In this document: positions 6,833-12,072 of the stretch, in pieces
Position numbering within the stretch: the stretch's first letter is position 1
Layout of the letters: each line of letters opens with the position of its first letter
Assembly: GCA_013042605.1 (NCBI GenBank)
Contig: JABDPT010000258.1
Location: 1 to 32,788, forward strand
DNA from: Paracoccaceae bacterium
GTDB taxonomy: Bacteria; Pseudomonadota; Alphaproteobacteria; Rhodobacterales; Rhodobacteraceae
Direction of reading: 5' to 3'
DNA length: 32,788 nt
Program-made: the position numbers and the translations under genes
Notes under the pieces: model-generated
Told to the model about the DNA's origin: nothing
The model's database searches: none
What the model saw: only the letters and a program-made list of their open reading frames with translations

Positions 6833-6836
<4 letters not shown>
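5058..6836 (+). CDS. SLC13-family permease with two RCK_C domains
   Basis: Inner-membrane anion/sodium symporter-like protein of 592 aa. N-terminal membrane half: SNTPVVVVMIPV and LIGTSTNL. A cytoplasmic middle region carries two RCK_C (TrkA-C) domains at about residues 222-300 and 308-390. The C-terminal membrane half has ELVSNNAVAVVVTP and FATPIGYQTNMMVYGPGGY. The two SN/TN hairpin motifs are characteristic of the SLC13/ArsB fold, and members with RCK_C domains are usually called sulfate or divalent-anion permeases. The actual substrate is unknown. Its stop overlaps the stop of the opposite-strand corrinoid gene by four bases, so the genes meet tail to tail with no room for a separate terminator. 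Confidence 0.88.
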
Positions 6837-7537
<701 letters not shown>

Positions 7538-7627
7538 GGTATTCTCCCCACGGGCCGGTGGCACCGCTCGCGTTTCCTTGCATGTCATGGATATTTTGTC
7601 GCATCCGCACTTGGCGGTTTACGACAA

Positions 7628-7689: not shown

Positions 7690-7714
7690 TTTGCCACATC
7701 GGGGCATTGGCAAA
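7690..7714. promoter_or_regulatory. Inverted repeat TTTGCCA-N11-TGGCAAA
   Basis: Perfect 7-bp arms separated by 11 bases, directly upstream of the SOS box. The right arm overlaps the candidate -35 element (TTGGCA, 7707-7712) of the radical SAM gene, so a protein bound here could affect its transcription. The regulator is not identifiable. Confidence 0.35.
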
Positions 7715-7734
7715 TGTTCTTTCTTTGTTCTAAA
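7707..7734 (+). promoter_or_regulatory. Candidate promoter of the radical SAM gene
   Basis: TTGGCA at 7707-7712 and TCTAAA at 7729-7734 with a 16-base spacer. The predicted transcript start, about 7741-7743, coincides with the ATG at 7743, so the mRNA would be leaderless or nearly so. No Shine-Dalgarno sequence exists before that ATG, which agrees. The -10 match is only moderate. Confidence 0.4.
7716..7730 (+). promoter_or_regulatory. LexA/SOS box GTTC-N7-GTTC
   Basis: GTTC, seven bases (TTTCTTT), GTTC: an exact match to the direct-repeat LexA operator of alphaproteobacteria, defined in Rhodobacter sphaeroides and relatives. It lies between the candidate -35 and -10 elements of the radical SAM gene, 12 bases before its ATG, which is a good position for repression. 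LexA binding itself is inferred. Confidence 0.72.
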
Positions 7735-7742
7735 TTGGTGCA

Positions 7743-8828
7743 ATGCTGCTGGAAGACGGACATACCCCCGAAGCCCTTCGAAAAGGGCGCGCGGCGCGCA
7801 CCAATCGCGTCGGGCGCTATGAAGCCCGGACGCGCGCGCCGGTCGATGATGGCTGGCCCGTGGACGACCCGCTGCCGCCGCTTCGAACCGAGGTTTCGGT
7901 TGAACGCCCGCGCCGCGTGATCACGCGCAACACGTCCCCGGATCTTAGTTTCGACCGCTCGATAAACCCGTACCGGGGGTGCGAACACGGCTGTATCTAT
8001 TGCTTTGCACGCCCCAGCCACGCCTGGCTCGGGATGAGCCCGGGGCTTGATTTCGAAACCCGGCTGATCGCCCGGCCCGACGCGCCCGAGGGTCTGGCCC
8101 GGGAACTGGCGCGCAAGAGTTACCGCCCGGCGGTCATTGCCATCGGCACCAATACCGACCCCTATCAGCCGATTGAGCGCGAGCATGGGATCATGCGGCG
8201 CATTCTTGAGGTGCTGCTGGCCCATCGCCACCCCGTCGCGGTGGTCACCAAGGGCACGCTGATCGAGCGTGATGCGGATATTCTGGGCGAGATGGGGCGC
8301 ATGGGGCTGGCCCGTGTCGGCATTTCGGTGACGACGCTCGACCCGGCCGTCAGCCGCGCGATGGAACCGCGCGTGCCACACCCCGCGCGCCGGTTGCAGA
8401 CCATCCGCCGGCTGACAGATGCGGGGTGCCCGGTGCGGGTCATGGCCTCGCCCATGATCCCCGCGCTCACCGATCACGAGCTGGAGGCGATATTGGAGGC
8501 TGCGCGCGACGCCGGGGCGGTGGCCGCTAGCTGGATCATGCTGCGGCTGCCGCTTGAGGTGGCACCCTTGTTCCGGGAATGGCTGGAAGAGGCGTTTCCC
8601 GACCGCGCCGCCCGGGTGATGGGCCGCGTGCGTGACCTGCATGGCGGGCGCGACTATGACCCCGAATGGGGCAAGCGGCTGCGCGGCGAGGGTGCGTTTG
8701 CCGAGCTGATGGCCCAGCGTTTCGCCATCGCGGTCAAGCGCTTGGGCCTTGCCACCGACCTGCCGCCCCTGCGCACGGATCTTTTTGCCGTGCCGCCCAA
8801 GCCGGGCGACCAGATGGAGCTTTTCTAG
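7743..8828 (+). CDS. PA0069-family radical SAM protein (SplB/COG1533-like)
   Basis: 361-aa radical SAM enzyme of the PA0069 family, grouped in COG1533 with spore photoproduct lyase-like repair enzymes. The iron-sulfur motif CEHGCIYC gives C80, C84 and C87, preceded by SINPYRGC as usual in this family. AIGTNTDPYQPIE and VTKGTLIERD continue the radical SAM barrel. The C-terminus (ELMAQRFAIAVKRLG) is intact. The reaction is unknown for this family; a DNA-repair role is suggested by the COG name and here by a LexA box immediately upstream. The ATG at 7743 has no ribosome site, and the next in-frame ATG falls after the cysteine motif, so this start or a leaderless mRNA is required. Two same-strand genes follow at short spacing. 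Confidence 0.9.
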   Translation: MLLEDGHTPEALRKGRAARTNRVGRYEARTRAPVDDGWPVDDPLPPLRTEVSVERPRRVITRNTSPDLSFDRSINPYRGCEHGCIYCFARPSHAWLGMSPGLDFETRLIARPDAPEGLARELARKSYRPAVIAIGTNTDPYQPIEREHGIMRRILEVLLAHRHPVAVVTKGTLIERDADILGEMGRMGLARVGISVTTLDPAVSRAMEPRVPHPARRLQTIRRLTDAGCPVRVMASPMIPALTDHELEAILEAARDAGAVAASWIMLRLPLEVAPLFREWLEEAFPDRAARVMGRVRDLHGGRDYDPEWGKRLRGEGAFAELMAQRFAIAVKRLGLATDLPPLRTDLFAVPPKPGDQMELF

Positions 8829-11058: not shown

Positions 11059-12072
11059 CTAGCTTCTTGCGCGCCGACGCCGGGTGCGGACCGGGGCGGC
11101 GGCGCCATCGGTGCCGTCGGAGGCTGACGAAAACGCCCCCAACGCGCTGGTGATCGCGTCCAGCGTGGGGCGCGAGCCCGTGGGCCGCGTCTCAAGCGCC
11201 TCGCGCATCTTTTCAAGATGCGCCGGCGTCGTGCCACAGCACCCGCCGATGATCGTGGCGCCGCAATCGCGCGCCAGCACCGCGTAATCGGCCATCAAGT
11301 CGGGCGTGCCGTCATAGTGGATGTGCCCGTCATGGTATTTCGGAATGCCCGCATTGCCCTTGGCGATGACCGGGCGTTCGGTCCCTTGCGCGGCAAAGCC
11401 AAGAACCGTGCGCAACAGATCCGATGCGCCGACCCCGCAATTGGCCCCGAAGGCAAGCGGTTTGTGGTCGAGCTTTTCAACCATCGTGGCCATCGCGGCA
11501 GAGGTCAGGCCCATCATCGTCCGGCCCGCGGTGTCGAAACTCATCGTTCCGCACCATGGCATGCCAGCCAGAAGTGCGGCTTCGGCGGCGGCCTTGTATT
11601 CTTCCGGCGCGCTGATCGTTTCGACCCACAGCACATCCGCCCCGCCGGCCTTCAGCCCCTCGGCCTGTTCGTGAAACATCTCGACGGCAAGTTCATGGGT
11701 GAGTGCACCCATCGGGGCCATTATCTCACCCGTCGGGCCGATCGAACCCGCGACGATCACGGTGCGACCCGCGCTATCGGCCACCTCGCGCGCGATTTCG
11801 GCGCTGGCCTTGTTCAACTCGAACACCCGGTCCTGTCCGTTATGCAGTTTCAGGCGCGAGGCGTTGCCACCGAACGTATTGGTGAGAAAGAGATCGCTGC
11901 CCGCATCGACCGCGCCCTTGTAAAGGGTCTTGATGTCCGCCGGGCGGTCCACGTTCCAGAACTCGGGCGCGTCGCCCGAGGCCAGCCCCATGTTGAACAG
12001 GTTCGTGCCGGTGGCGCCATCGGCAAGGATCCATGGCCGCTCGGCCAGAAGGGTGGACAGGGCATCGGTCAT
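11059..12072 (-). CDS. bmt: Betaine/homocysteine S-methyltransferase family protein
   Basis: 337-aa zinc-dependent methyltransferase that transfers a methyl group to homocysteine to form methionine. DGATGTNL near the N-terminus and ELN in the substrate loop are family-typical. The zinc ligands are C212 (GANCGVG) and C278-C279 (GGCCGTTPAH). It is annotated as Bmt in many Roseobacters, but the methyl donor may be methyl-cobalamin on the separate corrinoid protein rather than betaine, since split methionine synthases of this type have been described for Phaeobacter (from memory). The C-terminus ends in an Arg-rich tail (RTRRRRARS). A GAAGGAT ribosome site lies about 10 bases before the ATG. Same-strand neighbours are the ATPase inhibitor upstream and the DUF4304 gene downstream. 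Confidence 0.88.
   Translation of the reverse strand: MTDALSTLLAERPWILADGATGTNLFNMGLASGDAPEFWNVDRPADIKTLYKGAVDAGSDLFLTNTFGGNASRLKLHNGQDRVFELNKASAEIAREVADSAGRTVIVAGSIGPTGEIMAPMGALTHELAVEMFHEQAEGLKAGGADVLWVETISAPEEYKAAAEAALLAGMPWCGTMSFDTAGRTMMGLTSAAMATMVEKLDHKPLAFGANCGVGASDLLRTVLGFAAQGTERPVIAKGNAGIPKYHDGHIHYDGTPDLMADYAVLARDCGATIIGGCCGTTPAHLEKMREALETRPTGSRPTLDAITSALGAFSSASDGTDGAAAPVRTRRRRARS

Follow-up and report, generated by a model that had tools for sequence, protein, structure and literature searches.

Introduction

The locus described here raises two questions: whether a radical SAM gene that usually goes by the name of photolyase belongs to the SOS regulon of its host, a member of the Paracoccaceae, and what the encoded enzyme would do there. 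The connection between LexA and such genes has a history. A study of 2012 predicted LexA control of COG1533/splB in alpha- and betaproteobacteria, with a species list that includes P. denitrificans and S. meliloti, and described splB as the first SOS-controlled enzyme of photoreactivation (PMC3323433). SOS regulation of SplB (COG1533) has been described as shown in several species (PMC8565304), a radical SAM protein is listed in the Gram-positive SOS core and in Balneolaeota (PMC7739468), a radical SAM gene of Streptomyces venezuelae is MMC-induced and LexA-bound (PMC9380542), and SplB-like genes have been linked to ImuB-C operons (PMC3765255). The link of LexA to a radical SAM gene is, then, sound but already known. 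In the literature that we found on the P. aeruginosa LexA regulon PA0069 is not named; it is reportedly part of a 15-gene list by Cirz et al. in 2006, which we take as a lead only.

A LexA box in the spacer of a promoter

The features of the locus are collected in Table 1, with coordinates referring to the window, i.e., the whole 32,788-nt stretch of DNA that was analysed.

Table 1. Features of the radical SAM locus in the window.
Feature	Position	Strand	Basis
-35 element TTGGCA	7707..7712	+	promoter scan and ortholog alignment
LexA box GTTCTTTCTTTGTTC (GTTC-N7-GTTC)	7716..7730	+	exact pattern match; conserved in orthologs
-10 element TAAATT, directly 3' of the LexA box	7731..7736	+	promoter scan and ortholog alignment
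Predicted start of a leaderless mRNA, on or next to the A of the ATG	7743	+	inferred
PA0069-family radical SAM gene (361 aa; residues 80-87 form CX3CX2C)	7743..8828	+	NF033668, PF04055
Divergent neighbour: corrinoid (B12-binding) protein	6833..7588	-	ORF list and family match

A preliminary description of this DNA had placed an exact GTTC-N7-GTTC 12 bases 5' of the ATG of the radical SAM gene and between candidate -35 and -10 elements; the sequence, the coordinates and the distance are exact, and an independent promoter scan returned a promoter at this position. This is the single sigma-70-like promoter found here (TTGGCA-N18-TAAATT, with 0.1 expected in shuffles), and the box lies inside its 18-bp spacer.

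The bare pattern occurs four times in the window, with 1.13 expected, and the other three sites (10017, 19188 and 30557) all fall within coding sequence, while the genome-wide count is 134 vs. 130 for the reversed control pattern. Most true LexA boxes have a T before the second GTTC, and with this T included the genome-wide numbers become 41 vs. 21 in the control. By count alone a bare site is unremarkable and not significant; it is the position of the box and its conservation, not its count, that exceed chance.

Conservation and promoter registers in Alphaproteobacteria

The comparison covered the upstream regions of 110 alphaproteobacterial orthologs: 80 from named genome contigs, 29 from whole-genome relatives and the one in the window; these loci are mutually related and include two duplicates (L017/L075), so that a binomial value computed over them is not a true probability. 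An exact GTTC-N7-GTTC is present within 260 nt upstream of the gene in 104 of the 110, and every one of the 106 boxes found upstream of these orthologs lies on the coding strand. For comparison, twelve control patterns (reversed, with other spacings, permuted, or representing other LexA motifs) gave 0 to 4 matches in the same regions, and of 2042 background windows drawn from these loci, each 280 nt long, 8 have a match (0.4%). Six loci have no exact box within this distance: L089 carries it farther upstream (-385), L099 is truncated by the contig end and the remaining four show versions with one mismatch. Among the named records, the PA0069-family gene of Sinorhizobium meliloti is preceded by GTTCTTGCTTTGTTC, and that of Paracoccus denitrificans by GTTCTCTAAATGTTC, 12 nt before the ATG, which is the same gap as in the window. 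Absence of the box from close orthologs had been named at the outset as the observation that would speak against SOS control, and the comparison strongly supports the claim instead.

The promoters fall into two registers. In class 1, formed by 48 orthologs with the window's arrangement (most of them from Rhodobacterales), a conserved -35 element TTGCAA is found at -8 to -3 relative to the box and a -10 element TAnnnT at +15 to +20, with the ATG near +27. In class 2, formed by 20 other Alphaproteobacteria, the whole promoter set is moved by 12 bp relative to the box, with the -10 at +27 to +32, the ATG at about +39 and a -35 TTG inside the box in 16 of 20 cases, vs. 7 of 48 in class 1; the preference of the class 2 box spacer for TTG is explained by the -35 lying inside the box. 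LexA would be expected to cover the spacer in class 1 and the -35 element in class 2. Transcription looks leaderless in both classes, because the ATG follows the last base of the -10 by 7 nt in both and Shine-Dalgarno-like sequences are rare (3/48 in class 1 and 1/20 in class 2). A narrow literature search returned no paper describing a leaderless start or two registers of PA0069 promoters, and the leaderless look and the two registers 12 bp apart are what the present analysis adds.

The LexA motif changes between classes

A second, independent sample consisted of 299 Pseudomonadota genomes, 144 of which encode a PA0069-family protein above the cut-off; upstream regions were taken from 53 Alphaproteobacteria and from 47 genomes of other classes, the class of the latter being inferred. 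The exact alphaproteobacterial box is present in 49 of the 53, and the other four differ from it by one mismatch. The LexA box of beta- and gammaproteobacteria is CTGT-N8-ACAG, and precisely this pattern precedes the gene in 32 of the 47 non-alphaproteobacterial orthologs, with no instance of the N7 or N9 spacings. The named record of Aeromonas caviae, a gammaproteobacterium, has CTGTATATATAAACAG upstream. In two further non-alphaproteobacterial genomes, of family f63, the upstream sequences TTAGTAATAATACTA and TTAGCAATAATACTA match TTAG-N6-TACTA, which we take to be the xanthomonad-type LexA motif, the identity of the family being likewise our assumption. The PA0069 gene thus appears to keep its LexA control while the LexA motif itself changes between classes, which further backs the SOS control proposed in the preliminary description.

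Predicted LexA control of the family is nevertheless not universal. An exact CTGT-N8-ACAG is missing in 15 of the 47 non-alphaproteobacterial orthologs, and only some of these have another plausible box. No recognisable LexA motif was seen upstream of some f63 orthologs, both f84 and both f55 orthologs (including L253, L262 and L265), in which either LexA control would have been lost or the LexA motif would be of an unfamiliar type.

Predicted SOS control of the radical SAM gene

The window's own genome encodes lexA, with two overlapping boxes in front of it, and boxes also precede recA, uvrA and the imuA-like and imuB-like genes; the organism therefore has the usual alphaproteobacterial LexA system. 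The presence of the box in nearly all orthologs, the exchange of motif outside the Alphaproteobacteria and this resident LexA system together make the sequence at 7716-7730 almost certainly a real LexA binding site and SOS control of the gene close to certain, both LexA binding and induction by damage being read from sequence. A chance match in front of a gene outside LexA control is extremely improbable: the bare pattern is indeed as frequent in the genome as its reversed control, but the box recurs on the same strand and at the same promoter position in near-universal fashion among orthologs, and it is replaced correspondingly by CTGT-N8-ACAG outside the Alphaproteobacteria, so that conservation refutes the chance reading as far as sequence allows.

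Since two divergent genes share the intergenic stretch, the box might instead serve the corrinoid-protein gene, whose start lies at 7588 or 7539. We give this very little credence, because the box is embedded in a plus-strand promoter just before the radical SAM ATG and because it stays with the radical SAM gene in Rhizobiales, Caulobacterales and other loci despite different neighbours. As far as can be seen, the corrinoid-protein gene is outside the SOS unit. Its product resembles parts of MetH/MtbC, and a homocysteine S-methyltransferase-like protein, so judged from its sequence, is encoded nearby (11059-12072, minus strand); the two possibly represent a methionine synthase split into separate genes. 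More generally, the search for conserved neighbours of PA0069 found shared context among Alphaproteobacteria only, none of it reaching the other classes, with spurious ORFs in GC-rich DNA blurring the clusters. Defence-system models gave no match, and the search for phage copies gave only distant radical SAM proteins, with less than 65% of the protein covered.

With the box assigned to the radical SAM gene, LexA bound to GTTC-N7-GTTC in the undamaged cell would fill the spacer between -35 and -10 and block RNA polymerase. Upon DNA damage, RecA filaments would bring about LexA self-cleavage, the promoter would open and the PA0069-family enzyme would be made, the operator serving a single, probably leaderless, SOS gene.

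The protein has the predicted fold of spore photoproduct lyase

Assignment of the gene to the PA0069/COG1533 group, as originally proposed, is confirmed by a full-length match to NF033668 ("PA0069 family radical SAM protein") of 499.3 bits, well above the cut-off of 360. The only domain found in the protein is PF04055 (Radical_SAM); the FAD DNA photolyase domain PF00875 was not found in it. In an alignment of 37 relatives the only invariant cysteines are C80, C84 and C87 of the CX3CX2C motif. A PDB sequence search with the single window protein gave no match. The best structural match of its AlphaFold2 model (pLDDT 80 on average, with low values in the N-terminal part and in the region of residues 88-104) is spore photoproduct lyase (SPL) 4FHC, with Z 19.3 over 261 residues and rmsd 3.4, and the next structural family is NifB with Z 15.6.

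The name SplB/photolyase suggests a true SPL that repairs 5-thyminyl-5,6-dihydrothymine, and this possibility can be weighed at the level of single residues. SPL requires Cys141 and Tyr99 in the Bacillus numbering (PMC3742179). The SPL residues were placed on the window protein through SPL homologs that align to 4FHC and by profile comparison. Tyr97 (Bs) is kept as the invariant Y86 and the Thr-Lys pair as T169-K170, which, like the structural match, is what a true SPL would show. At or next to the position of Cys141, however, lies T136, a variable residue (T/I/A/V/G/S across the family), and the place of the relay Tyr99, beside the last cluster cysteine, is taken by F88, a position at which 25 of the 37 relatives have Phe and 12 have Tyr. 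The SPL models TIGR04070 and TIGR03886 gave no match to the window protein at E values of up to 1, the best match of any relative to them being 5e-6. Lacking Cys141 and a match to the SPL models, and with Phe for Tyr99, the protein has the SPL fold but falls outside the SPL family, and a true SPL is an improbable identity for it. SPL proper was not found in the own genome and, in the 299-genome sample, is confined to a single genus, for which reason the splB published for proteobacteria most likely corresponds to the PA0069 family.

Possible role of the enzyme

With its [4Fe-4S] cluster and SAM the enzyme would generate a 5'-deoxyadenosyl radical. The balance leans slightly towards a predicted action on damaged nucleic acid by a reaction other than spore-photoproduct cleavage. 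SOS control had been regarded in the preliminary description as direct evidence of a DNA-damage role; for the role of the enzyme itself it is circumstantial. SOS regulons include non-repair genes, and the enzyme might be LexA-controlled and yet modify RNA, a nucleotide or a protein in damage tolerance, a reading that we regard as a serious minority view. It is favoured, in addition, by the missing SPL-type H-donor and by the presence of the family, which tracks the DnaE2 mutagenesis polymerase more closely than photolyase: in the 299 genomes, with phylogeny ignored, 123 have both PA0069 and DnaE2, 21 and 26 have one alone and 129 have neither (phi 0.69), vs. phi 0.36 for PA0069 and photolyase, likewise with phylogeny ignored. 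The association with DnaE2 is also present within Alphaproteobacteria and within the other classes separately, again with phylogeny ignored. The same co-occurrence would, however, be expected of a DNA-damage enzyme, and the nearest fold by a clear margin is that of a DNA-lesion lyase. Co-occurrence with DnaE2 is compatible with a role in the damage response, without pointing to UV lesions in particular.

As a tentative proposal, the PA0069 family may form a separate SOS-induced class of radical SAM enzymes, which would reverse or process some DNA lesion distinct from the spore photoproduct and would do so with no cysteine as H-donor, combining the SPL fold with a new chemistry and staying under LexA through several changes of LexA's motif. 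It is very improbable that a gene kept under LexA despite class-specific LexA motifs is only a bystander when DNA is damaged, and the presence of PA0069 in about half of the sampled Pseudomonadota (144/299) makes it a widespread SOS enzyme. The SPL cysteine is missing in all 37 relatives, thus "photolyase" is not a safe name for the function, and biochemists are pointed first to other lesions.

Other candidate SOS sites in the own genome

Three further boxes of the own genome are recorded here as observations in their own right. The sequence GTTCTTGTTATGTTC (L112, G000:C5:11832-11846) is identical to the box of two Caulobacter SOS promoters (PMC12700426) and stands 2 nt in front of a putative start codon of prfC, the gene for peptide chain release factor 3, a possible candidate for SOS control of a translation factor. 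A second box, GTTCTATTTTTGTTC (L136, G000:C230:27278-27292), is found 2 nt before the ATG of a short ORF whose match to the error-prone polymerase DnaE2 is limited to the C-terminal ~100 residues of the polymerase; the ORF is either an independent OB-fold SOS protein or the end piece of a broken dnaE2. The third, GTTCACCTATTGTTC (L116, G000:C14:4771-4785), is located close to the start of an ORF of 173 aa, which has no NCBIfam match and, we presume, resembles the SOS-controlled putative nuclease MmcB.

Comparison with known systems

Within NF033668 the window protein is a plain member, with no difference seen. The Rv2578c family (NF038135) is related to it, yet the match of 218.8 bits misses the family cut-off of 430. 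One Streptomyces relative from this sister family has GAACATGTGTTC upstream, a Gram-positive-type LexA box GAAC-N4-GTTC, whereas the Arthrobacter and Tsukamurella relatives have no exact match to it (one of three actinobacterial records from the plasmid collection). With spore photoproduct lyase (4FHC; TIGR04070) the window protein has in common the fold, the CX3CX2C motif, Tyr97 (Bs) and the Thr-Lys pair, but it has no equivalent of Cys141, has Phe in place of the relay Tyr99 and lies far below the family cut-off. The published LexA-controlled SplB/COG1533 proteins belong to the same COG and are likewise under a LexA box (PMC3323433; PMC8565304; PMC7739468; PMC9380542). The 2012 study did not see this trait in gammaproteobacteria and read SplB as a photoreactivation enzyme (PMC3323433), whereas here Aeromonas, a named gammaproteobacterium, has the box and the cysteine of SPL is missing.
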